From NCBI RefSeq assembly GCF_013602415.1, contig NZ_WPAG02000002.1, forward strand, positions 1,829,480-1,893,479: a stretch of 64,000 nt of DNA, in the 5' to 3' direction. Both the position numbers and the translations under genes were made by a program. The number at the start of each line of letters is the position of its first letter. Position 1 is the first letter of the stretch. This DNA comes from Rhodococcus sp. B50 (lineage in GTDB: Bacteria > Actinomycetota > Actinomycetes > Mycobacteriales > Mycobacteriaceae). Shown here in pieces: positions 5,070 to 19,794 of this stretch. The notes under the pieces were generated by a model. It made no database searches and had not been told where the DNA came from. It worked only from the letters and a program-made list of their open reading frames with translations.

Positions 5070-5864
5070 ATGAACGCAGTTGCCTCCCTGAAAGGCTACG
5101 ACCTCGGTAACCGGGTCGTGTCGTACGACGACTCCGACGCCATCCTCTACGCGTTGTGCGTCGGCGCCCGTCCCGACCAGTTGTCCCTGGTCTACGAGCG
5201 GGACCTGCACGTCCTGCCGACCTTCGGGCTCGGGCTCGGCCTGTGGGCGGTGGAGGAGGCCGGGGAGCTCGGCGCCTACGACCGGTTGAAGTCGCTGCAC
5301 GCCGCGCAGCAGCTGACGGTCCATTCCCCCTTCCCGCGTTCGGGCAAACTCGAGATGCACGCTCGCGTCGCCGACGTGTGGGACAAGGGACCCGCCGCGA
5401 CCATCGACGTCGCGGTCGAGTGCGAGCAGTTCACGGCGACCTATGCGATCCATCTGCCGGGCTCGGGTGGCTGGGGCGGCGAGCGCGCTCCGTCGTCGCC
5501 GCGGGTCGACCTCGAGGACGCGCCGTTCCGCGAGGACGTCCACATCGCCGCGAACCTGCCTGCTCTGTACCGGCTCACCGGTGATCTGCACCCCGTCCAT
5601 ATCGATCCGGAGGTCTCCTCGGGCTACGGTTTCGAGCGTCCCATCCTGCACGGCCTGTGCACGCTGGGCATCGCGGCGCGGACCGTCGCCGGCGCCGTCG
5701 GCGCCGAGCCGTGGGAACTCCGCGAACTCCGCGCCCGCTTCGCGGCCCCGGTTCTTCCCGACGCCACCCTCGCCGTCCGCGCGCAGGCGTCCGGCACCGA
5801 GGTCGACTTCGACGCCCGGATCGATACCACGGGTGTGCTCTCCGGCGGTCACGCGAGCTTCTGA
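5070..5864 (+). CDS. MaoC-like double-hotdog dehydratase
   Basis: 264 aa with SD AAGGAAAG before ATG 5070. The N-terminal half is a FAS1-type hotdog with the conserved ADVWDKG. The C-terminal half carries the hydratase-2 motif YRLTGDLHPVHIDPE followed by GFERPILHGL. In this family the Asp and His of that motif hydrate 2-enoyl-CoA to the (R)-3-hydroxyacyl-CoA. The organisation matches eukaryotic hydratase 2 and the actinobacterial steroid-type hydratases. A related MaoC gene lies at 22491-23360 in a separate operon. It may supply the hydration step that the atypical crotonase next door does not. Confidence 0.88.
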   Translation: MNAVASLKGYDLGNRVVSYDDSDAILYALCVGARPDQLSLVYERDLHVLPTFGLGLGLWAVEEAGELGAYDRLKSLHAAQQLTVHSPFPRSGKLEMHARVADVWDKGPAATIDVAVECEQFTATYAIHLPGSGGWGGERAPSSPRVDLEDAPFREDVHIAANLPALYRLTGDLHPVHIDPEVSSGYGFERPILHGLCTLGIAARTVAGAVGAEPWELRELRARFAAPVLPDATLAVRAQASGTEVDFDARIDTTGVLSGGHASF

Positions 5865-5942
5865 TCGCACGTCCGCTCGCAGTCCGGCTCTACCGAAGGA
5901 AATCCCCCGCCCCACACGAAGTTCCCGCCGAAAGGGACTCAC

Positions 5943-7301
5943 ATGACCGCACACGCCGCTTCCAGTTTCGGAACCAAGCAGCAAAAACGAGCGTTTCTCG
6001 CCAGCCTCGTGGGCACCACAGTCGAATGGTTCGACTTCTTCATCTATGCCACGGCCGCGACGCTCGTCTTCTCGACGATCTTCTTCCCCGAACTGGGGTC
6101 GAACGTCGGCATCCTCGCTTCCTTCGCGACCCTCGGTGTCGCCTTCCTCGCCCGCCCGGTCGGCGCGTTCGTCTTCGGCCATCTCGGAGACCGGCTCGGC
6201 CGGCGCACGACACTGATCACCACTCTCACGGTGATGGGTGCCGCCACGGGACTCATCGGCCTGCTGCCCACCTGGGATCAGGTCGGTATCTGGGCGCCGA
6301 TCATGCTCATCGCCCTCCGTTTCCTCCAGGGCGTTGCGGTCGGTGGTGAGTGGGGTGGAGCGGTTCTCATGAGTGTCGAGAACGCGCCGAAGACCCGCGA
6401 ACGCTTCTACGGCTCCGCACCCCAGATCGCGAGTCCGCTCGCGCTCGTGCTCGCCACGGTCGTCATGTACTTCGTGGCCCGCATGCCGAACGACCAGCTG
6501 ATGTCGTGGGGCTGGCGGATCCCGTTCCTCGCCGGCTTCGTCCTCGTCCTGATCGGTCTCGTCATCCGGCTCGGCGTCGAGGAATCGAGTGAATTCACCG
6601 AGGTGAAGGAGACGGGCACCGTCACGAAGAACCCGATCGCCACCGTCCTGCGCACGATGCCGAGCCGCGTGCTCGCCGGTATCGGCCTGCAGGCCAGCGT
6701 GATCGTGCTGTTCTACCTGATCACCACATACATGCTCACGATGGCGACCAACATTCACGGGTTCACCAAGAGCGACACCCTGATGATCCTGCTCATCGCT
6801 GCGACGATCGACCTCTTCGCGATGGTCGGCGTCGGCATCCTCTGCGACCGGTTGTCCGCCTGGACGGTCTTCGTGGGCGGGGTGGTCTTCACCGGCGCCT
6901 TCGCATTCCCGCTGTTCGCCCTGTTCAACACCGGCAACATGGGGCTGATGATCGTCGCATTCTCCGCGGCTCTCGTGCTCGGCCACGCGACCACCTACGC
7001 GGTGGTCTCGAGCATGACCGCCAACCTGTTCCCGACCGAGGTGCGGTACAGCGGTGTCGCCCTGTGCAGCGCGTTCTCCGGTGTCGCGTGGGCGGCACCG
7101 ACCCCGCTCGTCGCCGCCGCTCTCGTGCCCACCGACGGCTCGCAGCACTGGTGGCCGCTCGCCGCGATCCTCGTCGGCACCGCTGTCGTCTCGTTCGTCG
7201 CCGCAGCCTCCATGCGCAGCCATTTCACCTCCGAGACGGCGGCCGACGACAGTGACGACGAGTCCCGCGACCTCCGGGTCCGCGTGGGCGACCCCGTCTG
7301 A
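5943..7301 (+). CDS. MHS-family MFS transporter (metabolite:H+ symporter)
   Basis: 452 aa, 12 predicted membrane segments. Begins TTVEWFDFFIY, typical of MHS (ShiA/ProP-like) carriers. The MFS motif A appears as GHLGDRLGRR in the loop between helices 2 and 3, and RFLQGVAVGGEWGGAV is the family signature in helix 4. It ends in an acidic cytoplasmic tail. The likely role is proton-driven uptake of the carboxylate used by the surrounding operon. A 78-nt gap from the dehydratase contains an AAAGGG ribosome site. Substrate unknown. Confidence 0.9.
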   Translation: MTAHAASSFGTKQQKRAFLASLVGTTVEWFDFFIYATAATLVFSTIFFPELGSNVGILASFATLGVAFLARPVGAFVFGHLGDRLGRRTTLITTLTVMGAATGLIGLLPTWDQVGIWAPIMLIALRFLQGVAVGGEWGGAVLMSVENAPKTRERFYGSAPQIASPLALVLATVVMYFVARMPNDQLMSWGWRIPFLAGFVLVLIGLVIRLGVEESSEFTEVKETGTVTKNPIATVLRTMPSRVLAGIGLQASVIVLFYLITTYMLTMATNIHGFTKSDTLMILLIAATIDLFAMVGVGILCDRLSAWTVFVGGVVFTGAFAFPLFALFNTGNMGLMIVAFSAALVLGHATTYAVVSSMTANLFPTEVRYSGVALCSAFSGVAWAAPTPLVAAALVPTDGSQHWWPLAAILVGTAVVSFVAAASMRSHFTSETAADDSDDESRDLRVRVGDPV

Positions 7302-7333
7302 GCACCACCCATCCGATCGACCAGGAGATTCTC

Positions 7334-8482
7334 ATGACTGTGATGCTCAGCGAGGAGCAGCGCGAGTTCGGGGCGGCCGTCCGCGAATTCTGCCGCCGCG
7401 AAGTGGGCACGCGCGAACAGCGCGACAAGCTCACCGACTGCGGCCGCGAAGGACACAGCCTCGAGCTGAACCGGCGGATCGCCGAACTCGGCTGGGCCGC
7501 GATCAACGTCCCCGAGGAGTACGGCGGGGCCGGCGGCAACCATGTCGACCTGTGCGTCCTGCTCGAGGAACTCCACCGCGGTCTGGCGCCGGTCCCGTGG
7601 CACGGCACGACCCTCATCACCGCCGGGATCTACACCAAGTTCGCGAGCGAGGAGCTCAAGCGGACGGTGCTCGGCCGGCTCGCCGAGGGTGCCGCGCTGG
7701 CGATCGCGATGTCCGAACCGGAAGCCGGTTCCGACGTCGCGGCGCTGACCTGCCGCGCCGAGCGCACCGCGGACGGCTGGGTGATCAACGGTCAGAAGAC
7801 GTGGATCACCAACGCCCATCAGGCGGACAGCATCCTCCTGGTCGCTCGTACCGCGCGTGGCGAGAAGAAGCACCACGGGCTCACCATGTTCCACGTGCCG
7901 GCCGACACTCCGGGACTGACGATCAAGGGCATCGACACGCTGGGCGGAACCGAGGTCAACGACCTCTACTTCGCCGACTGCGTGCTGCCCGCCGACTCGG
8001 TCGTCGGTGAGGTCGGTCAGGGCTGGGCCCAGCTCATGCCGGGTCTGGCGACCGAGCGGCTGATCCTCGCCGCGCAGATGCTCGGCACCGCCGAACGCGC
8101 CTTCGACGACGTCTTGGCGTTCGTCTCCGAGCGCACCCAGTTCGGTACCCGGGTCGGCTCGTACCAGGCGATCAAGCACCGCATCGCCGACCTCGCGACG
8201 GAGATCGAGTGCACTCGTCTGCTCGTCTACAGCGTCGCGCACCGCGCCGATGCCGGTGACGACCCGCAGGGCCTGGCCCGCGCGTCGTCGATGGCGAAGC
8301 TCAAGGCGACAGAGGTCGCGAAGAGCACTGCCCTGGAGGGCATGCAGATGATGGGTGGCTACGGCTATTCCACCGAGTTCGACATGGCGCAGCACGTGCG
8401 CGCAGCCCTGGGCGCCACCATCTACGGCGGCACCAACGAGATCCAGCGCGACATCATCGGAAACTCGTTCGGCCTCCGGTAG
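7334..8482 (+). CDS. Acyl-CoA dehydrogenase
   Basis: 382 aa FAD enzyme. FAD/substrate motifs are MSEPEAGSD and KTWITNA, and the C-terminal Arg segment is MMGGYGYS. The usual base of MCAD (Glu in IYEGT) is replaced, since this protein reads IYGGTNEIQ. A Glu is instead present at residue 241 in ATERLILA, the position of the catalytic base in isovaleryl-CoA and long-chain dehydrogenases. This suggests a branched, cyclic or otherwise bulky acyl-CoA. It is the last gene of the operon and is followed by a strong hairpin terminator. Confidence 0.92.
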   Translation: MTVMLSEEQREFGAAVREFCRREVGTREQRDKLTDCGREGHSLELNRRIAELGWAAINVPEEYGGAGGNHVDLCVLLEELHRGLAPVPWHGTTLITAGIYTKFASEELKRTVLGRLAEGAALAIAMSEPEAGSDVAALTCRAERTADGWVINGQKTWITNAHQADSILLVARTARGEKKHHGLTMFHVPADTPGLTIKGIDTLGGTEVNDLYFADCVLPADSVVGEVGQGWAQLMPGLATERLILAAQMLGTAERAFDDVLAFVSERTQFGTRVGSYQAIKHRIADLATEIECTRLLVYSVAHRADAGDDPQGLARASSMAKLKATEVAKSTALEGMQMMGGYGYSTEFDMAQHVRAALGATIYGGTNEIQRDIIGNSFGLR

Positions 8483-8683: not shown

Positions 8684-10063
8684 ATGACGCTGGAAGCCAC
8701 CGACACGTCCGTGCTGCGCCTCCCGTCCTCGAACGGCCGGTCCCCCGAGACCTCCGGATCCCCCACGCTGACCGAACTCGCCCACGCCGCCGGCACCCGC
8801 TACATCCTCGCCGTCTTCACCACCCTGTCCGGAAAGCCCTGCGCCAAGCTCGTTCCCGTCGAATCCGTCGGGGAGCTCGAGACCGAGGGCGTCGGCTTCG
8901 CCGGCTACGCCGCAGGTTCGATGGGCCAGGTCCCGAAGGACCCCGACCTCGTCGCCATCCCCGATGCCGCGTCGTTCACGCCCATCCCGTTCGTGCGCGA
9001 AGGCCTCGCCCTCGTCCACTGTGACCCGCACGTCGAAGGTGAGCCCTGGCCGTACGCGCCGCGCGTGATCCTCAAGTCCGTGCTCGCCCAGGCCGCCGAG
9101 CTGGGCCTCGAGGTCAACGTGGGTGCAGAGATCGAGTACTTCCTCGTCAACAAGGACGAAAACGGAACGCTGCGCACGGCCGACGCGCTCGACACCTCCC
9201 GCCAGCCCTGCTACGACGCCCGCGACGTGACCCGCATGTACGAGCACCTCACCTCGATCTCGGCAGCGATGAACACCCTCGGGTGGGGCAACTACGCAAA
9301 CGACCACGAGGACGGCAACGGCCAGTTCGAGCAGAACTTCCAGTACGCGGACGCGCTGACCACCGCCGACCGGGTGGTGACCCTGCGCTACCTGATCTCC
9401 GTGCTCGCCGAACAGCGCAGCATGACAGCGACCTTCATGCCCAAGCCCTTCGCGGACCGCACGGGATCGGGCATGCACATGCACCTGTCCCTGTGGAGCG
9501 ACGGCGCCTCGGCGTTCCCCGACGCATCCGACCCGCGCGGGCTGGGTCTGTCGAAGACCGCCTACTCCTTCATCGCCGGTATCCTCGAACACGCGTGCGC
9601 CCTGCAGGGCGTTATCGCGCCGACGGTCAACTCCTACAAGCGCACCGGCGCGACCAGCACTTCCTCCGGCGCAACCTGGTCGCCGCGGTACGCGACCTAC
9701 GGCGGCAACGACCGCACGCACTACCTGCGCGTCCCCGATTCCAACCGCGTCGAACTGCGCGGCGGTGACGGCTCCGCGAATCCGTACCTCGCCACCGCTG
9801 CCACGGTCGCTGCCGGCCTCGACGGCATCGGGCGCAACCTCGACCCGGGCACTCCCGGTACGGGCGCTTCCGCGGACCCGCTGCCGATGACGCTGCTGCA
9901 CGCGATGGACGCCCTCGTGGCCGATCCCGTCGTCGTCGGCGCCCTCGACTCGGCCGGCGCGAGTGTCGCCGACTACTTCGCCTCCCTCAAGCGCGAGGAG
10001 TTCTTCCACTGGCACAACACCGTGACCCCGTGGGAGATCGACAGCTATCTGACCGCCTTCTGA
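8684..10063 (+). CDS. Type III glutamine synthetase-like ligase (gamma-glutamylamide synthetase candidate)
   Basis: 459 aa from ATG 8684, SD GAGGAG. GS catalytic features: metal ligands in GAEIEYF, the ANDHEDGNGQFEQNF block, GSGMHMHLS, and the ATP/ammonia segment NSYKRTG. It belongs to the GlnT/GmaS-like branch rather than to GlnA1. GmaS-type enzymes ligate methylamine to glutamate, giving gamma-glutamylmethylamide; others use ammonia or larger amines. The three genes downstream are the split glutamate-synthase set, the arrangement known as gmaS-mgsABC or glnT-glxBCD. A possible GlnR box lies upstream. Family call is firm; the amine substrate is inference. Confidence 0.85.
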   Translation: MTLEATDTSVLRLPSSNGRSPETSGSPTLTELAHAAGTRYILAVFTTLSGKPCAKLVPVESVGELETEGVGFAGYAAGSMGQVPKDPDLVAIPDAASFTPIPFVREGLALVHCDPHVEGEPWPYAPRVILKSVLAQAAELGLEVNVGAEIEYFLVNKDENGTLRTADALDTSRQPCYDARDVTRMYEHLTSISAAMNTLGWGNYANDHEDGNGQFEQNFQYADALTTADRVVTLRYLISVLAEQRSMTATFMPKPFADRTGSGMHMHLSLWSDGASAFPDASDPRGLGLSKTAYSFIAGILEHACALQGVIAPTVNSYKRTGATSTSSGATWSPRYATYGGNDRTHYLRVPDSNRVELRGGDGSANPYLATAATVAAGLDGIGRNLDPGTPGTGASADPLPMTLLHAMDALVADPVVVGALDSAGASVADYFASLKREEFFHWHNTVTPWEIDSYLTAF

Positions 10064-10120
10064 GAACCTTCGACTTCTTCCGGATACATCGAACAGACCC
10101 ATCGAACAGGAGAGACGACC

Positions 10121-11008
10121 ATGTGCGGAATCGTCGGACTTCATCTGCGGGACACCGCGCTCGAGCCCCGGTTGGGCAGCCTGCTGACCGGAATGCTCGG
10201 GCAGATGGTGGACCGCGGACCGGATTCGGCGGGCGTCGCCGTCTACGGCAATCCGGTCTTCTCCCCTGCCGGGGAGTCGTCGGTCTCGGTGCTCGACGCG
10301 CCGTCGGATCTCGCCGCGACCGTCGGCGACGCACTGGGCGTGACCGTCGGTGCGCTCGACCTCGCACCCACCACCGTGCTGCACGCCCCCGTCCCCGCGG
10401 CCCTGCTCGCCGATACCGTCCGTGCCCTGGCGCCCGCGGCGACCGTCATCGGCTTCGGTGACGACGTGACCGTCCTCAAGGGAACGGGCGATCCGCGTGT
10501 TCTCGCGGAGAATTTCGGGCTGCCGTCCGTCTCCGGATGGCAGGGTGTGGGCCACACGCGCATGGCCACCGAATCCGCGGTCACCGCAGCAGGATCGCAT
10601 CCCTTCGCCGTGGGACCGGACCAATGCCTCGTCCACAACGGTTCGTTCTCCAACCACCTGTCGATCAAACGCGAACTCGAGGACGAGGGCGTGGTGTTCG
10701 ACAGCGAGAACGACACCGAGGTCGGAGCACGCTTCGTGGCCCAGCACCTCGCCGAGGGCGCGGATCTCGAGAAGGCCCTGCGTCTGCTCGGCGAACGGTT
10801 CGACGGCTTCTACACCCTGCTGGTGTCCACTTCCGATTCCTTCGCGGTGGTCCGCGATCCGATCGCCTGCAAGCCCGCGATCGTCGCCGAGTGCGACGCC
10901 TACGTCGCGATGGCTTCGGAGTTCCGCGCTCTGGCAGGGCTTCCCGGCATCGCCGACGCCCACATCTTCGAACCCGAACCGGACCGGGTCTACGTGTGGC
11001 AACGCTGA
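10121..11008 (+). CDS. Class II glutamine amidotransferase subunit (MgsA/GlxB-like)
   Basis: 295 aa. Begins MCGIVGLH, so Cys2 becomes the N-terminal nucleophile after Met removal. The Ntn amidotransferase motifs GHTRMAT, HNGSFSNH and ENDTEV follow. It corresponds to the glutaminase domain of glutamate synthase, encoded here as a separate subunit. In N-methylglutamate synthase (MgsABC) this subunit handles the gamma-glutamyl donor. SD AGGAGAG precedes ATG 10121. It sits 57 nt after the ligase gene and 53 nt before the GXGXG subunit, so co-transcription is likely. Confidence 0.9.
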   Translation: MCGIVGLHLRDTALEPRLGSLLTGMLGQMVDRGPDSAGVAVYGNPVFSPAGESSVSVLDAPSDLAATVGDALGVTVGALDLAPTTVLHAPVPAALLADTVRALAPAATVIGFGDDVTVLKGTGDPRVLAENFGLPSVSGWQGVGHTRMATESAVTAAGSHPFAVGPDQCLVHNGSFSNHLSIKRELEDEGVVFDSENDTEVGARFVAQHLAEGADLEKALRLLGERFDGFYTLLVSTSDSFAVVRDPIACKPAIVAECDAYVAMASEFRALAGLPGIADAHIFEPEPDRVYVWQR

Positions 11009-11061
11009 CCGGCACCATCGTCCCCGATTCCGCTGTCCGACCTCGTTCCCCGGAGGCAATC

Positions 11062-11760
11062 ATGACCACCGACACCCTGCTCCCGACCGCCACCTACGAC
11101 CTGGCGACGACCACCACCCGCGAACTCAATGCGGCACTGCACGCGACGGAGGCCCCGGCCTCGGTCGAGGTTACGAACCCGCAGGGCGCCCACGCACTCG
11201 CCTGCGGCCTGAACCGGCCGATCGACGTCCGGGTCGACGGCCACGTCGGCTACTACGCCGCCGGGATGAATCAGCACGCCCACGTGACCATCGACGGCAA
11301 TGCCGGTGTCGGGGTCGCCGAGAACATGATGTCGGGCAGCGTGCGCGTCACCGGTGACGCCTCGCAGTCCGCCGGCGCGACCGCCCACGGCGGACTGCTG
11401 GTGATCGAAGGCAACGCCGCCGCCCGCTGCGGCATCTCGATGAAAGGCGTCGACATCGTCGTCGGCGGCGACATCGGACACATGAGCGCCTTCATGGGGC
11501 AGGCCGGCCGCCTCGTCGTCCTCGGCGATGCCGGTGAGGCCCTGGGTGATTCGCTGTACGAGGCGCGGATCTACGTGCGGGGCCGCGTCGCCTCGCTCGG
11601 CGCGGACTGCGTCAAGAAGGAGATGCGCGCCGAGCACGTCGCCGAACTGCAGGAACTGCTCGACGCGGCCGGTTTCGACGCCGACCCGGCCGAATTCACC
11701 CGCTACGGCTCGGCCCGTCAGCTCTACCACTTCCACGTCGACAACGCCTCGGCGTACTGA
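11062..11760 (+). CDS. GXGXG-domain subunit (MgsB/GlxC-like)
   Basis: 232 aa from ATG 11062, SD GGAGGC. A right-handed beta-helix of G-x-x-G-x-x-x-G repeats (VRVDGHVGYYAAGMN, ITIDGNAG-type, VVGGDIGHMSAFMGQAG) matches the C-terminal domain of glutamate synthase and FwdC-type proteins. It is structural and pairs with the amidotransferase and FMN subunits. Having it as a free-standing gene between the other two is diagnostic of the mgsABC/glxBCD arrangement. Confidence 0.9.
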   Translation: MTTDTLLPTATYDLATTTTRELNAALHATEAPASVEVTNPQGAHALACGLNRPIDVRVDGHVGYYAAGMNQHAHVTIDGNAGVGVAENMMSGSVRVTGDASQSAGATAHGGLLVIEGNAAARCGISMKGVDIVVGGDIGHMSAFMGQAGRLVVLGDAGEALGDSLYEARIYVRGRVASLGADCVKKEMRAEHVAELQELLDAAGFDADPAEFTRYGSARQLYHFHVDNASAY

Positions 11761-11802
11761 CGCCCGACGTTCTTCCGCCCGCTCGACCCCGAGGAGACTT
11801 CC

Positions 11803-13128
11803 ATGACCTTCCAGCCCGGACTGCGTGAGTCGGCCACCTTCGACCGCAACGTCATCCACGAGATCCAGCGCGCCGCCGCGACCGGCATCTACGACATCCG
11901 CGGCTGGGGTGCCAAGCGCACGGTTCCCCACTTCGACGACCTGCTGTTCCTCGGGGCGTCGATGTCGCGCTACCCCCTCGAGGGCTACCGCGAGAAGTGT
12001 GAGACCGACGTCGTCCTCGGCGACCGCAACGCGAAGTACCCACTGCACCTGGATATCCCGGTCACCATCGCCGGAATGAGCTTCGGTGCGCTGTCCGGCC
12101 GCGCGAAGGAGGCCCTCGGCCGCGGCGCCAGCGAGGTCGGCACGTCCACCACCACCGGTGACGGCGGTATGACCCCGGAGGAACGCGGACAGTCCAAGCA
12201 CCTGGTCTACCAGTACCTGCCCTCCCGGTACGGCATGAACCCCGACGACCTGCGCAAGGCCGACGCCATCGAGGTCGTGCTCGGCCAGGGCGCCAAGCCC
12301 GGCGGTGGCGGTATGCTGCTCGGCCAGAAGATCACCGAACGCGTCGCGGGGATGCGCACCCTGCCGGTGGGCATCGACCAGCGCAGCGCATGCCGGCACC
12401 CCGATTGGACCGGCCCCGACGACCTCGCCATCAAGATCCTCGAACTGCGGGAGATCACCGGCTGGGAGAAGCCGATCTACGTCAAGGTCGGCGCGACCCG
12501 CACCTACTACGACGTCAAGCTCGCCGTGAAGTCCGGCGCCGACGTCGTGGTGGTCGACGGCATGCAGGGTGGTACCGCCGCCACCCAGGACGTCTTCATC
12601 GAGCACGTGGGCATCCCGACCCTCGCCGCGCTCCCCCAGGCCGTGCAGGCCCTGCAGGAGATGGGTGTGCACCGCACTCCGGGCGGCGTGCAACTGATCG
12701 TCTCCGGCGGTATCCGTTCGGGTGCCGACGTCGCCAAGGCGATGGCCCTCGGCGCCGACGCCGTCGCCATCGGCACGGCCGCGCTGATCGCCCTCGGCGA
12801 CAACGATCCGAAGTACCAGGCCGAATACGAGAAGCTGGGCTCGGCCGCCGGCTTCTACGACGACTTCCAGGACGGCAAGGATCCCGCCGGTATCACCACG
12901 CAGGATCCCGACCTGCAGGCCCGCTTCGATCCGGTCGAGGGTGGCCGCCGCCTGGCGAACTACCTGCGGGTGCTCACCATGGAGGCGCAGACCATCGCCC
13001 GGGCGTGCGGCAAGTCGCACCTGCGCAATCTCGAACCGCAGGACCTCGTCGCCGTCACGATGGAGGCCGCCGCCATGGCACGGGTTCCCCTGGCCGGAAC
13101 CGATTGGATCCCCGGCCGGACGCTCTAG
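11803..13128 (+). CDS. FMN-binding glutamate synthase-family subunit (MgsC/GlxD-like)
   Basis: 441 aa TIM-barrel FMN domain of glutamate synthase. Visible parts are the FMN-phosphate segment LIVSGGIRSGADVAKAM, GADAVAIGTAALIALG, and DGMQGGTAAT. Cysteines near CRHPDW may belong to the Fe-S or substrate site. It would reduce the imine formed from 2-oxoglutarate and the nitrogen donor. With the two preceding subunits it completes an N-methylglutamate-synthase-like heterotrimer. SD GAGGAG before ATG 11803. The physiological product (glutamate, N-methylglutamate or another N-alkylglutamate) cannot be decided from sequence. Confidence 0.9.
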   Translation: MTFQPGLRESATFDRNVIHEIQRAAATGIYDIRGWGAKRTVPHFDDLLFLGASMSRYPLEGYREKCETDVVLGDRNAKYPLHLDIPVTIAGMSFGALSGRAKEALGRGASEVGTSTTTGDGGMTPEERGQSKHLVYQYLPSRYGMNPDDLRKADAIEVVLGQGAKPGGGGMLLGQKITERVAGMRTLPVGIDQRSACRHPDWTGPDDLAIKILELREITGWEKPIYVKVGATRTYYDVKLAVKSGADVVVVDGMQGGTAATQDVFIEHVGIPTLAALPQAVQALQEMGVHRTPGGVQLIVSGGIRSGADVAKAMALGADAVAIGTAALIALGDNDPKYQAEYEKLGSAAGFYDDFQDGKDPAGITTQDPDLQARFDPVEGGRRLANYLRVLTMEAQTIARACGKSHLRNLEPQDLVAVTMEAAAMARVPLAGTDWIPGRTL

Positions 13129-13132
13129 TCCC

Positions 13133-13438
13133 GTGACGACCTTCGCAGCCCTGCTCGACGACATCCGGGACTGGCAGGCACAGGCCGTCTGCCGGTCCCG
13201 GGACGTCGACTTCTTCGACGACGCGCCCGAGGGTGTCGCCCGCGCCAAGTCCGTCTGCGCCTCCTGTCCCGTGCGGGAACCGTGCCGCGACCACGCGGCG
13301 CTCGCCGGGGAGACGCACGGGATCTGGGGCGGGTTGACGCCCACGGAGCTGATCCGTCACCGGTGGCTCGCCCGCGCCCGATCCACGCAGCACGAACGTG
13401 CCTGCCACAGCCAATTCTCGAGAGGACACAGCACATGA
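13133..13438 (+). CDS. WhiB-like Fe-S transcription factor
   Basis: 101 aa from GTG 13133. Cysteines at C20, C42, C45 and C51 give the WhiB spacing C-xn-C-x2-C-x5-C for a [4Fe-4S] cluster, followed by the GIWGG turn and a basic C-terminus (IRHRWLARARS) expected to contact DNA. WhiB proteins sense redox or NO and bind sigma factor. The gene begins 4 bases after the FMN-subunit stop, and its TGA overlaps the M20 hydrolase ATG (ATGA, 13435-13438), so it is embedded in a metabolic operon, which is unusual. An additional Cys lies near the C-terminus. Confidence 0.85.
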   Translation: MTTFAALLDDIRDWQAQAVCRSRDVDFFDDAPEGVARAKSVCASCPVREPCRDHAALAGETHGIWGGLTPTELIRHRWLARARSTQHERACHSQFSRGHST

Positions 13439-14664
13439 CCGTCTTCGACTCGCTCTGGGCATCGATCCTCGACGTCGGCAAGCACTCGACCACCGGAGGC
13501 TACCGCCGATTCGCGTGGAGCGACGCCGATCTCACTCTCCGCGAGTGGTTCCGCGGTTGTGCCGCCGAACGCGGCATGGACGTGGAAGAGGACCGCAACG
13601 GAAACCTCTGGGCCTGGTGGCTTCCCGAGGGCTGGGCGGGCGATCCCACCGGCGCCTTCGTCACCGGTTCGCACCTGGATTCGGTGCCCGACGGCGGTGC
13701 GTTCGACGGCCCCCTCGGCGTGGTCTCGGCGTTCGCCGCAGTGGATCTGGTCCGTGAGCGCGGCATCGTCCCGGCCGTGCCGATCGCGATCACGGCGTTC
13801 TCCGACGAGGAAGGCGCCCGCTTCGGTGTGGCATGTGTGGGCAGTCAGCTCACCACCGGGGCACTGGCTCCGCAGCGGGCGCTCGGCCTGCGTGATCGCG
13901 ACGGAATCACCCTGGCCGAGGCGATGACGCGCGCCGGCCGGGTGCCCGAACACATCGGCGCAGATCCCGGCCTGGTCGACCGGGTAGGGGTGTACGTCGA
14001 GTTGCACGTCGAACAGGGCCGGGCCCTCGACCTCGTCGACGCGCCCGTCGCGGTCGCGTCGTCGATCTGGCCGCACGGCCGGTGGCAGTTCACCTTCACC
14101 GGTGAGGCCAACCACGCCGGTGCCACGCGTCTGGTGGACCGTCGCGACCCGATGCTCGCGTACGCCTCGTCGGTCCACAGCGCCCGCTCGTGTGCGGCAG
14201 CAGCCGGAGCGGTAGCCACCTTCGGCAAGCTCGAGGTGCTGCCCAACGGCGCCAACGCGATTCCTTCCGAGATCAAGGCCTGGCTCGACGCTCGCGCCGC
14301 GGACGAGGAGACCCTGACGACACTGGTCGCCGAGATCGAGGCCGAGGCCCGCCGGCACTGCCTGCCGGACGAGATCGGACTCGACGTCTTCGCCGAATCG
14401 ATCACCCCCATCGTCGAGTTCCCGGCCGGACCGCGCGAACGGTTGCGCCGGGCGCTGTCCCATCTCGGGGACGTCCCGGTGCTCCCCACCCAGGCCGGGC
14501 ACGACGCCGGCATCCTGTCGGAGAAGGTCCCCACCGCAATGTTGTTCGTGCGCAATCCCACCGGGGTGTCGCACTCACCGCACGAGTTCGCCGAAGCCGA
14601 CGACTGCAACATCGGGGCGCGGGCGCTGGCCGACATCATGGCGGACTGGACGACGGGCAGCTAG
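13435..14664 (+). CDS. M20-family amidohydrolase (allantoate amidohydrolase/N-carbamoylase type)
   Basis: 409 aa. Di-metal ligands of the family are all visible: His in GSHLDS, bridging Asp in FDGPLG, Glu pair in DEEGARF, His in ELHVEQG and His in GVSHSPHEF. Relatives hydrolyse allantoate, N-carbamoyl amino acids or ureido/formimino groups. Actinobacterial histidine-degradation loci often contain such a gene, and HutD follows here directly, so an N-substituted glutamate is a reasonable guess. Start chosen at ATG 13435, overlapping the WhiB stop, with SD GAGAGGA. The hutD ATG follows its TAG without a gap. Confidence 0.85.
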   Translation: MTVFDSLWASILDVGKHSTTGGYRRFAWSDADLTLREWFRGCAAERGMDVEEDRNGNLWAWWLPEGWAGDPTGAFVTGSHLDSVPDGGAFDGPLGVVSAFAAVDLVRERGIVPAVPIAITAFSDEEGARFGVACVGSQLTTGALAPQRALGLRDRDGITLAEAMTRAGRVPEHIGADPGLVDRVGVYVELHVEQGRALDLVDAPVAVASSIWPHGRWQFTFTGEANHAGATRLVDRRDPMLAYASSVHSARSCAAAAGAVATFGKLEVLPNGANAIPSEIKAWLDARAADEETLTTLVAEIEAEARRHCLPDEIGLDVFAESITPIVEFPAGPRERLRRALSHLGDVPVLPTQAGHDAGILSEKVPTAMLFVRNPTGVSHSPHEFAEADDCNIGARALADIMADWTTGS

Positions 14665-15228
14665 ATGGTTGTGCAGGTGATCCGGGCCGACGACCGACGG
14701 CGGGTACCCTGGCGCAACGGCGCCGGGACGACCGAGGAGGTCGCGACCGGCCCCGACGGCCCCGACGGCCGTCCGCTGTGGCGGATCAGCCTGGCCGATC
14801 TGGGTTCGGAGCCGACCCAGTTCTCGGCCTTCGCCCGCACCGACCGCATCTTCACCGTCGTCGGTGAGCACGGCGTCGACCTCGACTCGGGGCCCGGGCC
14901 CCAACCGGTGGATCCGTGGCACCCGCATCCGTTCGCCGGGGAGGATGCGCCGCGCTGCGTGCCCCGAGGCACGACCCGGGCTTTCAACATCATGACCGAG
15001 CGCGGGGCCGCCACCGCCGGGGTCACGTATCTGACGCTCGACACGGAATTCGACACCGCCGCAGACGGGGTCACCGCCCTGTACGTGCGGTCGGGCACCG
15101 TGCACGCCGGCGCGGAAGGTGCCATGTCCGGAGACTGTCTCCTGATCCGCGACGAGGCGGTCACCGTACGTGGAGCCTCGGCCACCGGACTGCTGGTGCA
15201 CATCGGCCCGGCTCCCTTCCTCTCGTAG
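14665..15228 (+). CDS. hutD: HutD/Ves family protein
   Basis: 187 aa bicupin-like protein. The family hallmark near the N-terminus reads VPWRNGAGTTEE (usually WKNGGG-T-EI), followed by WRISLADL and FSAFARTDR. In other bacteria HutD limits histidine utilisation, perhaps by binding N-formylglutamate or urocanate; no enzymatic activity is established. ATG 14665 directly abuts the M20 hydrolase TAG, so it is translationally coupled. Residues GPDGPDG reflect a short in-frame duplication. No hutH, hutU or hutI gene lies in the window, so the usual histidine role is not supported here. Confidence 0.8.
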   Translation: MVVQVIRADDRRRVPWRNGAGTTEEVATGPDGPDGRPLWRISLADLGSEPTQFSAFARTDRIFTVVGEHGVDLDSGPGPQPVDPWHPHPFAGEDAPRCVPRGTTRAFNIMTERGAATAGVTYLTLDTEFDTAADGVTALYVRSGTVHAGAEGAMSGDCLLIRDEAVTVRGASATGLLVHIGPAPFLS

Positions 15229-15306
15229 AAACCGATTCCTTCCCGACGACATCGACTCCCCCACGGACCTCCCCTGCCGGAGGCCGTTCGAACAAAGGAT
15301 CCTCAG

Positions 15307-16497
15307 GTGACGGACACGACCAAGTTCCTGATCGTCGGCGGCGGCCTCGAAGGCCTGGCCATCGCCTACTCACTCGCCGACCGCGGCGAGACCGACGTCC
15401 TCGTCCTCGAGCGCGACACCCTCTGCTCGGGCATGACCGGAAAGTCCAGTGGCGTCGTGCGATGCCATTACGGCACCCCGTCGCTGGCCGCGATGTCCTG
15501 GTACGGCGTCGACATCTTCACCCGGGCGACCGAGATCTTCGGCGACGACATGGCTTTCCGCCAGTGCGGTTACGTCGTCGGTGTCGCGGAGAACAACGTC
15601 GAGCCGCTCGAGGCGAACATCGAGATGATGCAGGGTCTGGGCATCGCCACCGAACTCATCGCCCACGACAAGATGGCCGAACTGTGGCCGGGCCTGAACC
15701 TCGAGGACTTCGCCCTGTTCGCCTACGAACCGCTCGGCGGTCGCGGCGAGTCCTACATGGCGGGAATGGCGTTCGGGGCCACGGCCCGTCGGATGGGCGT
15801 GAAGATCCGGCAGAGCACCCCCGTGGCGTCGTTGCTGCAGAACGCCGCCGGCCGAGTCTACGGCGTGACCCTCGCCGACGGTTCCGAGGTGCACGCCGAG
15901 CAGGTCATCGTCGCCGCCGGCCCCTGGACGCCGGCGCTCGTCGCCGGGGTCGGCATCGACATCGACGTCCGGGCGCAACGCGCGCAGTTGGTCCTCGTCG
16001 ATCAGGGTGTCCCGACCCCGGAGGTTCCTGTGCTGTCCGATCTGGCCGGCCTGCAGTACATCTGCCGCGAACCGAACGGCGAACTGCTCGTGGGCAACTC
16101 CGATCACCAGACACCGGAGTACATCGACCCCGACAAGTACATCAATCGCGCCGACGACTCGACGATCGAGAAGAACATCATGAAACTCGGCAACCGTCTG
16201 CCCGAGATGCCGGACCCGCGGATCACCAGTTCGTACGTCGGTGCGTACGACGTCACCGAGGACTACAACCCCGTCATCGGCCCGGCACCGGTCGAAGGCC
16301 TGTTCCTGGCGACGGGATTCTCCGGGCACGGCTTCAAGATCTCCCCCGCCGTGGGCAAACTGGTCGCCGACCTGCTGATCGACGGGAAGACCGATCTGCC
16401 GAACGTGAACCCGGACGACTTCCGTTTCTCCCGCTTCGAGGAGGGCGATCTGCTCCTGAGCCTCAACCCCTACGAGGGGGCCGGCGAGATGCGCTGA
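15307..16497 (+). CDS. FAD-dependent amino acid/amine oxidoreductase (DAO family, SoxB/MgdA-like)
   Basis: 396 aa from GTG 15307. The N-terminal FAD site is VGGGLEGLAIAYSLA, near the sarcosine-oxidase-beta pattern. SGVVRCHYG, VIVAAGPWTP and the C-terminal GFSGHGFKISPAVG are typical DAO motifs. Relatives oxidise N-methyl or secondary amines such as sarcosine, dimethylglycine or N-methylglutamate. In the known N-methylglutamate pathway the dehydrogenase has four subunits (MgdABCD). Only the beta-like subunit is present here, so it may work alone or with partners elsewhere. It probably belongs to the 8684-16497 operon (78-nt gap after hutD). Confidence 0.85.
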   Translation: MTDTTKFLIVGGGLEGLAIAYSLADRGETDVLVLERDTLCSGMTGKSSGVVRCHYGTPSLAAMSWYGVDIFTRATEIFGDDMAFRQCGYVVGVAENNVEPLEANIEMMQGLGIATELIAHDKMAELWPGLNLEDFALFAYEPLGGRGESYMAGMAFGATARRMGVKIRQSTPVASLLQNAAGRVYGVTLADGSEVHAEQVIVAAGPWTPALVAGVGIDIDVRAQRAQLVLVDQGVPTPEVPVLSDLAGLQYICREPNGELLVGNSDHQTPEYIDPDKYINRADDSTIEKNIMKLGNRLPEMPDPRITSSYVGAYDVTEDYNPVIGPAPVEGLFLATGFSGHGFKISPAVGKLVADLLIDGKTDLPNVNPDDFRFSRFEEGDLLLSLNPYEGAGEMR

Positions 16498-16577
16498 TCC
16501 CCGGCCTTGTAGCGCGCTCGTGCCCTCCCGGACCCTGCCGGATCCGTGGAGGGCACCCGCATGTCCGCATCGCGGCG

Positions 16578-16611
16578 TTCACCACTGGTGGACACACGCT
16601 ACGCTGACGAT
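16578..16611 (+). promoter_or_regulatory. Possible leaderless promoter with palindrome for the XRE-cupin gene
   Basis: TTCACC (16578-16583), a 16-nt spacer and TACGCT (16600-16605) lie 6 nt before ATG 16612. The palindrome CACCACTGGTG (16580-16590) overlaps the -35 region and could be an autoregulatory operator. By-eye call. Confidence 0.35.
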
Positions 16612-17259
16612 ATGGCCAGCCCAGATCGTCCCGTCCTGTACGACGATTCCGGACGCGAAGTCCCGCGCGGCACCCCGACGGGCGTGGATCTCGAGCGCGC
16701 GATCGCCCACCAAGTCAGGTCGTTGCGGCTGGCCAGCGGCCTGTCCGTCGGCGACATGGCGGCCAAGGTGGGGATCTCCAAGGCCATGCTCTCGAAGATC
16801 GAGAACGCCCAGACCTCGTGCAGCCTCTCGACTCTCGCGCGCCTCGCCGCCGGTCTCGACGTTCCGGTCACCTCACTGTTCCGTGGCGCCGATGCCCACC
16901 GCGATGCGGTGTTCACGAAGAACGGTCACGGGGCCGAGATCGTCGGTCGCGGTACACGGGTCGGTCACCACTACGAACTGCTGGGGGCGCTGAGGGGGCA
17001 ACACAAGAGGCTCGAACCGGTGCTGGTGACCCTCACCGACGCGAGCGACGTCTTCCCCCTCTTCCAGCATCCCGGCACCGAGTTGCTGTACATGCTCGAG
17101 GGCGAGATGCTCTACGGCCACGGCGATTCCGAGTACCACCTGCAACCGGGCGACGCCCTGCTCATCGACGGCGAGGGATTGCACGGACCCAACGAACTGC
17201 TGAAGTTGCCCATCCGGTTCCTCGCCGTCACGGCGTATCCGGACAACCATCAGCCGTGA
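16612..17259 (+). CDS. XRE-family regulator with C-terminal cupin sensor
   Basis: 215 aa from ATG 16612. The HTH lies at about residues 30-85 (QVRSLRLASGLSVGDMA, ISKAMLSKIENAQ), followed by a cupin_2 domain (FQHPGTELLYMLEGEM, LQPGDALLIDGEG). This architecture is common for regulators of amine and amino-acid catabolism that sense a small ligand in the cupin. Start: ATG 16612 fits a leaderless promoter. An upstream in-frame ATG at 16561 with GGAGGG would add 17 residues. Orientation and position make it the likely local regulator of the FAD oxidase/GS-like operon. Confidence 0.85.
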   Translation: MASPDRPVLYDDSGREVPRGTPTGVDLERAIAHQVRSLRLASGLSVGDMAAKVGISKAMLSKIENAQTSCSLSTLARLAAGLDVPVTSLFRGADAHRDAVFTKNGHGAEIVGRGTRVGHHYELLGALRGQHKRLEPVLVTLTDASDVFPLFQHPGTELLYMLEGEMLYGHGDSEYHLQPGDALLIDGEGLHGPNELLKLPIRFLAVTAYPDNHQP

Positions 17260-17326: not shown

Positions 17327-18664
17327 TCAGGACTTGGGCACGACGACGTCGCGGTCCTCGGCGAACACCTCGGGACGCAGCGTCGACGGGCCGGTGGGCG
17401 AGAACGAGTCCATCACGTAGGCCGTCTCCCCGTGGACCGGAACGTCGATTCCTCGCATCTCGGTGTCGGCGTCCACCCGGATACCCATGATCTTGTCGAG
17501 CATCTTCGCGATCAGGAAGGTCACCGCGAACGAGTAGGCGAAGACGGCGGCCATCGCGACGACCTGACGTCCGAGGAAGTCGATGCCCCCGCCGAAGAAC
17601 AGGCCGTCGACACCGGCCGGCGCAGCGGCCGTCGCGACGAAGGCGATGAGGGTGGTGCCCACGACGCCACCCATGAGGTGGATCGCGACGACGTCGAGTG
17701 AGTCGTCGTAGCCCATGCGGAACTTCCAACTCACGGCGAAGCAGCCCACCGCACCGGCGACCGCACCGATCAGCAGGGCGCCGAGCGGCGACACGAGGCT
17801 CGCCGCGGGCGTGATCCCCACGAGGGCAGCGATGACGCCGGAGATCGCACCGAGTGTCGTGGCGTGCTTCTCCTTGATGCGCTCGACGATCAGCCATCCG
17901 AGCAGACCGGCCATCGCGGCGACGAGAGTGTTGAGGACGACGACACCGGCCATATGGTTGGCTCCGCCTGCCGAACCGCCGTTGAATCCGAACCAGCCGA
18001 ACAGCAGGATGCCGCCACCGAGCACGACGAGGGGCAGGTTGTGAGGACGTGCCACGTGAGGGAATCCACGACGGCGACCGAGTGCGACCGCGAGCGCGAG
18101 CGCCGCGACACCCGAGTTCATGTGCACGGCTGTGCCACCGGCGAAGTCGTGTGCAGCGAGTGTGTTGGCGATCCATCCGCCCTGCGTACCGGCCTCTTCG
18201 TCGTCGAAGGCGAAGACCCAGTGCGCGACGGGGAAGTAGACGAGAACGACCCAGATACCCGAGAACACCAGCCACGCCGAGAACTTCATCCGATCGGCGA
18301 CGCCACCGGCGATGATCGCCACCGTGATACCCGCGAAGAGGAGGTGGAAGGCCGCGGTCAACGCTGCCGGCACCCCGCCGGCCGGGTCCTCCTCGAGCAA
18401 CGACCCCAGACCGATGTCGCTGAACGGATCGCCGATGAGGCCGAGGCCCCCGACGCTGTCACCGAGCACGGCGGCCGGACCGAACAGCACCCACAGGACG
18501 GCAGTGACGGCGAAGCCGCCGAACACCATCATGATCATGTTGAGCGCGCTCTTGACTCCGAGCATGCCGCTGTAGAACAGCGCAAGGCCCGGAACCATCA
18601 GTACGACTGCTGTGAACGCCGCCAAAATCCAGGCGGTATCGGCGGCCGCGAGTGCCTGTTCCAT
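17327..18664 (-). CDS. amt: Ammonium transporter (Amt/Mep/Rh family)
   Basis: 445 aa from ATG 18664 (MEQALAAADTAW). About 11 membrane helices. The twin pore histidines of Amt proteins lie in GTAVHMNSG and VAIHLMGG. FALFYSG-type and GGAVADRMKF-type segments match as LALFYSGML and GGVADRMKF. It moves ammonium across the plasma membrane. A 40-residue polar C-terminal tail follows the last helix. No glnK or glnD gene accompanies it, unlike the main actinobacterial amtB-glnK-glnD operon, so this is a second, dedicated transporter. A possible GlnR box lies upstream at 18757-18794. Confidence 0.93.
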   Translation of the reverse strand: MEQALAAADTAWILAAFTAVVLMVPGLALFYSGMLGVKSALNMIMMVFGGFAVTAVLWVLFGPAAVLGDSVGGLGLIGDPFSDIGLGSLLEEDPAGGVPAALTAAFHLLFAGITVAIIAGGVADRMKFSAWLVFSGIWVVLVYFPVAHWVFAFDDEEAGTQGGWIANTLAAHDFAGGTAVHMNSGVAALALAVALGRRRGFPHVARPHNLPLVVLGGGILLFGWFGFNGGSAGGANHMAGVVVLNTLVAAMAGLLGWLIVERIKEKHATTLGAISGVIAALVGITPAASLVSPLGALLIGAVAGAVGCFAVSWKFRMGYDDSLDVVAIHLMGGVVGTTLIAFVATAAAPAGVDGLFFGGGIDFLGRQVVAMAAVFAYSFAVTFLIAKMLDKIMGIRVDADTEMRGIDVPVHGETAYVMDSFSPTGPSTLRPEVFAEDRDVVVPKS

Positions 18665-18756
18665 ATAAGTCCACCCTGTTCGATCCTGGGGTCCGCGACC
18701 CCGAAGCCACACGGTGACCCGCATTCATCACCGTCCCCTGAGAGTGGACCGAGTCT

Positions 18757-18794
18757 GTAATGTCCCTGCGAGGAGCGGGTGAATTTCGTGTAAC
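18757..18794 (-). promoter_or_regulatory. Candidate GlnR box upstream of amt
   Basis: Read on the minus strand: GTTAC (18794-18790), n6, TTCAC (18783-18779), then ATTAC (18761-18757) at the expected 22-bp offset from the first pentamer. The fourth half-site is poor. It lies 93-130 bases upstream of the amt start. It resembles the element before the GS-like gene, so shared nitrogen control is plausible. Confidence 0.45.
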
Positions 18795-18963
18795 GCCACC
18801 GCCCGGCAACAGCGGTCCGTAGTGCCCGGTGGGCAGGGCGAAGGCAGGCCGTGAACGGGCAGGCAGTATGGAGGATGACGCGCCGCCATACCGGGTACCC
18901 CTGACCTGGCGAGTTCCGTGGGAACGACGGCTCGAACCGCTGCACGCATCTGGGAGGTAGACG

Positions 18964-19794
18964 ATGGGACGGGTCACGACACGTCGACCGGTACTGCGCA
19001 TCACGACGGACAGGGTGACGCGGCGTCCCGACACACTCGCCGTCGAGGAACCGCTCGAGATCAGGATCGGCGGCGAATCGCTGACGATCACCATGCGCAC
19101 CCCCGGGCACGACGTCGACCTCATCCACGGATTCCTCCTGGCCGAAGGAATGATCGGCACTCGCGAGGACATCGTCGCGGTCCGATACTGTGACGGGGTC
19201 GACGCGAGCGGCGCGAACACCTACAACGTTCTCGACATCACCCTCGCGCCCGGTGTCACGATCCCGGAAGGGACGGGACGACGCGCGTTCACGACCACCT
19301 CCGCGTGCGGGGTATGCGGGAAGAACTCGCTCGACGAGGTACGCACCCGCACGCGATATCCGCTGCGAGAGGCCGGCAGCACCTCGATCGGTACGCACAC
19401 GCTCACCGAACTGCCCGACACACTGCGGCGGCACCAGCAGGTCTTCGAATCGACCGGGGGTCTGCACGCGGCTGCCCTGTTCACTCCCGATGGCGCATTG
19501 CTGGCCCTGCGCGAGGACGTCGGCAGGCACAACGCGGTCGACAAGGTGCTCGGCTGGGCACTGACCGACAACCGGGTTCCACTCTCGCACAGCGTGCTCA
19601 TGGTGAGCGGACGCGCCTCGTTCGAGCTCGTGCAGAAAGCCGTGATGGCCGGGATCCCCGTGCTCGCGGCGGTGTCGGCGCCCTCGTCGCTCGCCGTCGA
19701 TCTCGCCGCGGAGTCGGACCTGACCCTGGTGGGTTTCCTCCGCGGCGAGACGATGAACGTGTACACCGCACCGGACCGCATCAAGACCGAGTGA
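18964..19794 (+). CDS. fdhD: Formate dehydrogenase accessory sulfurtransferase FdhD
   Basis: 276 aa, SD GGGAGGT before ATG 18964. The loop cysteines are in SACGVCGK. The conserved [25 protein letters not shown] and [13 protein letters not shown] blocks are present. FdhD passes sulfur from IscS to the molybdenum cofactor of formate dehydrogenase. No formate dehydrogenase gene is in the window. Its position beside a possible methylamine-type island is suggestive of C1 oxidation but may be coincidence. It converges on the lipase gene with a 9-bp gap. Confidence 0.95.

Follow-up and report, generated by a model that had tools for sequence, protein, structure and literature searches.

The locus described here raises the question of which enzyme releases glutamate from N-methylglutamate when the genes for the four-subunit N-methylglutamate dehydrogenase MgdABCD are missing from a gmaS-mgsABC-like island. 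The island occupies positions 8684-16497 of a 64,000-nucleotide stretch (hereafter the window) of Rhodococcus sp. B50 (NZ_WPAG02000002.1, positions 1,829,480 to 1,893,479; contig C2 of a 6.16 Mb assembly in 3 contigs, estimated to be 100% complete). It encodes, on the + strand and in this order, a ligase, three N-methylglutamate-synthase-like subunits, a WhiB regulator, an M20 hydrolase, a HutD protein, and a DAO flavoenzyme. We consider it a gmaS-mgsABC-like methylamine locus in which the single DAO protein probably takes the place of MgdABCD. What we observed is the gene content, the absence of SoxD, SoxG, and urocanase, and the patterns of co-occurrence, linkage, and phylogeny; from these we infer every reaction and substrate. 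The island is a real and conserved variant of the N-methylglutamate pathway in which one multi-subunit enzyme has likely been replaced, with the enzyme assignment resting on genome context. Its genes are:

8684..10063, + strand: GmaS-like type III ligase, predicted gamma-glutamylmethylamide synthetase (TIGR03105, 615 bits, cut-off 470)
10121..11008, + strand: class II amidotransferase, MgsA-like subunit (PF13522 and PF13537 above cut-off)
11062..11760, + strand: GXGXG protein, MgsB-like subunit (PF01493, 43 bits, cut-off 32.5; start ATG 11062)
11803..13128, + strand: FMN (flavin mononucleotide) glutamate-synthase-domain protein, MgsC-like subunit (PF01645, 295 bits)
13133..13438, + strand: WhiB-family regulator (PF02467, 66 bits, cut-off 23.6; start GTG 13133)
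13435..14664, + strand: M20 amidohydrolase, predicted N-formyl-L-glutamate hydrolase (NF006770, 630 bits, cut-off 372)
14665..15228, + strand: HutD-family cupin (PF05962, 93 bits, cut-off 25)
15307..16497, + strand: single-subunit DAO flavoenzyme, predicted N-methylglutamate oxidase or dehydrogenase (PF01266, 208 bits, cut-off 27.9)

An earlier note, made from the DNA letters alone, had listed these genes; all are present on the + strand in the order it gave, with domain scores above the cut-offs. The 5' end of the M20 gene overlaps the 3' end of whiB by a few bases, and its 3' end abuts hutD. We compared the island with a family sample of 121 genomes, in which ligase and M20 matches were counted at E 1e-80 (genomes and loci carry our own G and L numbers; in G027 and G049 the ligase is matched only in part). 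The same three synthase genes accompany the ligase in the neighbourhoods of all 29 relatives with such a ligase match, so the grouping is not due to chance.

In the Ruegeria/marine scheme, the N-methylglutamate pathway is laid out as dmmDABC and gmaS-mgsABC-mgdABCD (Lidbury et al. 2017, PMC5520151), and a review places dmm with mgsABC-gmaS-mgdABCD in Aminobacter (PMC11446756). The island shares with this pathway the ligase and the three synthase subunits, and dimethylamine monooxygenase and amt are linked here and in relatives; it differs in having neither SoxD nor SoxG, a single DAO for MgdABCD, and the added WhiB, M20, and HutD. In the route we propose, the upstream dimethylamine monooxygenase would supply methylamine, the ligase would join it to glutamate using ATP, and the three synthase subunits would transfer the methylamino group to 2-oxoglutarate, yielding N-methylglutamate and glutamate. 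The DAO would then oxidise the N-methyl group, giving glutamate and a one-carbon unit that would exit as formaldehyde or, less surely, as formate via N-formylglutamate cleaved by M20.

Genome-wide searches for SoxD and SoxG, the delta and gamma subunits of the four-subunit enzyme, found neither in Rhodococcus sp. B50 (the alpha-type subunit was not searched for), and the same searches were positive in 13 and 14 of the 121 family genomes, respectively. The earlier note had proposed a single DAO in place of mgdABCD and had named an intact mgdBCD elsewhere in the genome as the finding that would speak against it. With no SoxD and no SoxG, no such set came to light, and the proposal is supported both by this absence and by the distribution of the DAO. 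The ligase is present in 30 and the DAO in 31 of the 121 genomes, with both in 29 (Fisher p 1.9e-24; our Fisher tests ignore kinship among genomes, which makes small p values, this one included, too small). In 27 of these 29 pairs the two genes lie on one contig at a distance of at most 15 kb. The two unlinked pairs (G051 and G027) have ligase and DAO on different contigs of draft assemblies, and in G027 the DAO gene adjoins dimethylamine-monooxygenase genes on its contig. SoxD has no association with the ligase (Fisher p 0.31, 121 genomes); it occurs in five of the 30 ligase genomes, four times on a contig other than the ligase's and once, in G061, 132 kb away. SoxG was detected in six of the 30, the sixth (G112) being a weak match of 24 bits.

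A set of named genomes contributed 24 loci holding this DAO, six of which are also in the family sample; counts for this set are limited to the flanks examined. The GXGXG and FMN genes stand beside the DAO in all 24, and the ligase and amidotransferase do so in 23, the remaining locus (L159) being on a contig that begins inside the GXGXG gene. SoxD is found in none of these flanks. Across the phylum, an MgsC-like protein was detected at E 1e-120 in 23 of 396 genomes. Eighteen genomes with such a match lie outside the family, and we examined 16 loci, some on short contigs, from 15 of them (G161, G201, and G336 were left out). SoxD is encoded near the synthase genes in seven of the 16 loci, none of which has a DAO of this kind, and six of the seven also hold a distant SoxB/MgdA-like protein with 26-30% identity to the DAO. 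A locus from another family of the class (L143) has the order amt-ligase-synthase-DAO-M20-XRE.

The DAO protein belongs to the same FAD (flavin adenine dinucleotide)-dependent oxidoreductase family as monomeric sarcosine oxidase and the beta subunit of heterotetrameric sarcosine oxidase. Unlike that beta subunit and MgdA, it scores well below the soxB cut-off (TIGR01373, 132 bits against 529), falls in a separate clade, and has Ser and Met aligned with the two His of the SoxB KHDH segment, one of which we take to carry FMN. Among the matches listed for the DAO protein (25 of 40), none reaches its NCBIfam cut-off. In a tree of 47 rows from 49 loci plus the window, the 38 rows of this kind form one clade and 10 SoxB/MgdA-like rows form another (support 100/100, midpoint root). 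Only matches of at least 300 residues, at E 1e-10 or better, and free of stops were used, and the tree hence lacks L037, which is cut by the end of its stretch, and the DAO of G042 (L046). The predicted DAO structure has a mean pLDDT of 55.8 and was not used. The closest DAO protein is from Rhodococcus sp. HM1 and the closest M20 protein from Rhodococcus sp. LW-XY12 (97% each).

Some further loci carry DAO genes in other settings. A second DAO-M20 pair (about 52% identity) is located away from ligase islands in L121, L122, and L123; in L121 it adjoins a flavin reductase gene (PF01613) and, by eye, MmgE/PrpD and acyl-CoA-dehydrogenase-like genes. In L046 (G042), a 24%-identical DAO directly follows mgsC and is possibly a second, independent replacement. 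In L131 (G102), where the ligase has no match at E 1e-80, a broken DAO gene near amt resembles a remnant in decay.

The role of M20 bears on how the one-carbon unit would leave. We found 20 M20 copies in 19 of the 121 genomes, and 16 of them lie at most 5.2 kb from a DAO of this family: 12 in ligase islands, three in second DAO-M20 pairs (G009, G039, and G058), and one in G056. The other four copies (L124-L127) all directly precede hutF, two of them in the order hutU-M20-hutF-hutI. Because HutF makes N-formyl-L-glutamate, deformylation is the activity expected of an M20 enzyme encoded before hutF. The window M20 is 63-78% identical to all four hut copies, versus 50-54% to eight DAO-paired copies of the other class, and in the M20 tree the hut copies fall within the same large clade as the window protein. 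The island thus resembles actinobacterial hutU-M20-hutF-hutI operons in its M20 subfamily (NF006770), and HutD is also present in one of them (L125). Unlike those operons, no HutU, HutF, or HutI was matched in the window, the 29 family islands, L143, L136, or the 24 named loci. Urocanase is also absent from the genome, as judged by a search that found it in 27 of the 121 family genomes, so that M20 is predicted to be an N-formylglutamate hydrolase whose substrate is not derived from histidine. The earlier note had suggested an N-acyl substrate, which the linkage to hutF would narrow to N-formylglutamate. Degradation of histidine (or methylhistidine) was considered as the substrate source and rejected for this genome, urocanase being absent. 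Of the 13 genomes in which M20 neighbours a DAO of the 67-100% class, G108 alone encodes urocanase. Urocanase is present in all three genomes that pair M20 with the DAO class of about 52% (G009, G039, and G058), so the niche separation is incomplete.

G056, which has no ligase, carries genes in the order proline dehydrogenase, P5C (1-pyrroline-5-carboxylate) dehydrogenase, MFS transporter, LysR, glutamate dehydrogenase-like protein (below its equivalog cut-offs), HutD, M20, DAO (77%), and WhiB. This neighbourhood is indicative of chemistry that yields glutamate. Eighteen of the 30 ligase islands lack M20, which is therefore an addition that is dispensable for the core route. The earlier note had expected M20, HutD, and DAO to be conserved together with the ligase: this holds for the DAO, present in 29 of the 30 ligase genomes, and is mixed for M20 (22 of the 24 named loci, 12 of the 30 family islands) and HutD (16 of the 24 named loci).

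From these relationships one can picture a demethylation free of formaldehyde, in which the DAO would oxidise N-methylglutamate twice to N-formylglutamate, HutD would bind this product, and M20, a hydrolase of the histidine-pathway type recruited for the purpose, would cleave it to glutamate and formate; we hold this extension to be tentative and rather unlikely. Far from the island, the genome also encodes a formaldehyde dehydrogenase of the mycothiol-dependent type (697 bits against a cut-off of 513) and an oxidoreductase of the FdhF type (959 bits against 582; C2:3987762). A formaldehyde dehydrogenase gene is near the island in L040-L044 (proteins clustering with that of L043, which passes TIGR03451), and an FdhF-type gene (TIGR01701) adjoins FdhD near the island in L034, L046, L061, L159, and L179; in Rhodococcus sp. 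B50 this FdhD/FdhF-type pair seems to be split. The formaldehyde and formate gene content fits the plain formaldehyde route.

The kinship of M20 can also be read differently. Among solved structures it is closest to N-carbamoyl-L-amino acid hydrolase and allantoate amidohydrolase, and M20 could be an N-carbamoyl hydrolase working with a DAO that oxidises sarcosine or another N-methyl amino acid, in a hydantoin, creatinine, or methylated-purine route that shares only regulation with the methylamine genes. Such a route would suit the HyuA-type genes near the island in three of the 24 named loci (L174, L176, and L181) and the M20-DAO pairs away from the ligase in G056 and, as second copies, in G009, G039, and G058. 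We nevertheless judge it improbable, since no such genes are present in the island of Rhodococcus sp. B50, and since 29 of the 30 genomes with the ligase also have the DAO, whereas M20 occurs in 19 of 121 and only 12 times in ligase islands, which ties the DAO to the ligase even without M20. HyuA and HyuB hydantoinase/oxoprolinase genes were seen near the island in L132 as well as in the three named loci; in Williamsia they follow M20 together with an amide-type binding protein (HyuA, HyuB, and this protein by Pfam matches) and a regulator that by eye is PucR-like, and the third Williamsia contig ends soon after M20. In G009 (L042 10211-14931), a PucR-like regulator, an NCS1-like permease, and an amidohydrolase, all read by eye, lie between mgsC and the XRE gene.

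The identity of the amine is addressed by the ligase and its neighbours. The best solved relative of the ligase is 7cql (382 bits), the GmaS of Rhodovulum (PMC7948447), followed by the glutamate-methylamine ligase 9qur (352 bits), and glutamine synthetases reach at most 191 bits. Nineteen of the 21 residues that are assigned to ATP, glutamate, Mg, or methylamine in RhGmaS (PMC7948447) are identical in the window ligase; Gln175 is replaced by Ala and Trp189 by Phe. Ligase paralogues with 41-44% identity (L063-L065), used as a contrast, have no adjoining synthase genes. The dimethylamine-monooxygenase genes precede the ligase by 10-12 kb and thus fall just outside the window on its left side, where genes for HODM (haem-dependent oxidative N-demethylase), a reductase, a DmmA-like protein, and a TetR regulator are found (L136 14588-17997; L136 18481 corresponds to window base 1). 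The DmmA-like protein of a relative passes NF041259 (105 bits, cut-off 60). The HODM alpha subunit (HODM_asu-like) occurs in 22 of the 121 family genomes, 21 of which also have the ligase (Fisher p 1.7e-15, likewise overstated by relatedness), and in 18 of these 21, Rhodococcus sp. B50 included, it lies within 15 kb of the ligase or the DAO. It is also found in 13 of the 24 named loci. The linked dimethylamine-monooxygenase genes favour methylamine as the substrate, in part derived from dimethylamine. The idea of a different amine route, raised in the earlier note, is thus not borne out: the RhGmaS residues are largely kept, the dimethylamine-monooxygenase genes are linked, and the ordinary substrate methylamine is indicated. 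A small EutQ-type cupin accompanies the dmm genes of relatives (e.g., L045 4019-4405) and has no match beside the dmm genes of Rhodococcus sp. B50; McTaggart et al. noted a EutQ-type cupin near methylated-amine genes (PMC5023230).

The same gamma-glutamylation logic might handle a larger amine (ethylamine, isopropylamine, or ethanolamine, for example), and the change from Gln175 to Ala, which is conserved in 59 of the group's 62 loci (with some genomes counted twice), could make room for it. The same Ala is found in SoxD-carrying loci such as L147, dimethylamine monooxygenase is linked, and formaldehyde- or formate-oxidising genes (TIGR03451, TIGR01701) lie near the islands of some relatives, all of which makes a larger amine quite improbable. 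A further alternative gives the DAO an accessory role only and assigns the demethylation of N-methylglutamate to an enzyme that is unlinked and unrecognised. It would agree with the three relatives' neighbourhoods, of 29, that have no DAO, and is the least probable alternative by our estimate: all but one of the 30 ligase genomes have the DAO, the synthase genes adjoin it in all 24 named loci, and 25 of the 30 ligase genomes lack SoxD.

Several observations weigh against the replacement of MgdABCD by the DAO or against methylamine as the substrate. Members of the DAO family act on various amines (sarcosine, glycine, proline, and others), and the closest solved structure reaches only 130 bits. 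G042 has the ligase without this DAO and encodes SoxD and SoxG elsewhere in its genome. The DAO occurs without the ligase in G056, where it is intact, and in G102, where it has two in-frame stops. The neighbourhoods without a DAO in the flanks examined (L035, L039, and L061) belong to three members of the genus, and eight of the 16 phylum loci, some on short contigs, have neither SoxD nor this DAO. HODM was not found in nine of the 30 ligase genomes of the family sample, and the two substitutions in the ligase mean that its amine pocket may differ. The published actinobacterial case is Gma-MgsABC in Mycobacterium sp. 141 and 155, for which separate MgdA-D genes are assigned elsewhere in both genomes (McTaggart 2015, PMC5023230). 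The island resembles this case in being an actinobacterial gma-mgsABC cluster and differs from the assignment of separate MgdA-D in that the DAO gene is linked and 25 of 30 ligase genomes lack SoxD. The three sources cited here for the pathway (PMC5520151, PMC11446756, PMC5023230) assign its last step to MgdABCD. We found no description of a single-subunit N-methylglutamate oxidase in the open-access literature, as judged from titles and the starts of abstracts, with subscription papers outside this scope.

Three genes follow the island:

16561..17259, + strand: XRE-cupin regulator (HTH_31, Cupin_2)
17327..18724, - strand: ammonium transporter Amt (PF00909, 361 bits)
18964..19794, + strand: FdhD/NarQ-family protein, formate dehydrogenase accessory (PF02634, 242 bits)

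The XRE-cupin gene is present in 28 of the 29 relatives' neighbourhoods, and amt was matched in 24 of them, in one case (L050) with only 28% identity. FdhD stands beside amt in the window (17327-19794), and an FdhF-type gene lies between the two in L034, L061, and L159. WhiB is encoded near M20 or the DAO in L034, L120, L159, L162, and L163 as well. Upstream of the ligase (5070-8482), MaoC-like, MFS, and acyl-CoA dehydrogenase genes keep their position only in L034 and L035 among the 29 neighbourhoods and therefore look like ordinary neighbours. Possible GlnR boxes had also been suggested. The pattern GTNAC-n6-GNAAC, which we take to describe a GlnR box, occurs in the window no more often than expected (35 matches against 40.6). 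An alignment of amt upstream regions revealed a GTWAC element in six of six genus sequences and a TTCAC partner in five of six; its AC-n9-AC shape presumably resembles that of mycobacterial GlnR boxes, and this element is suggestive of a GlnR box and no more.

If a one-gene enzyme completes the pathway in relatives belonging to Rhodococcus, Nocardia, Gordonia, Williamsia, and Mycobacterium, it would become possible to predict methylamine use from genomes that now seem incomplete. Proteins annotated simply as FAD-dependent oxidoreductase or sarcosine oxidase beta would then gain a testable function. The link to M20 poses a concrete question, namely how the one-carbon unit leaves; if the formaldehyde-free reading were true, methylamine nitrogen would be harvested without free formaldehyde.

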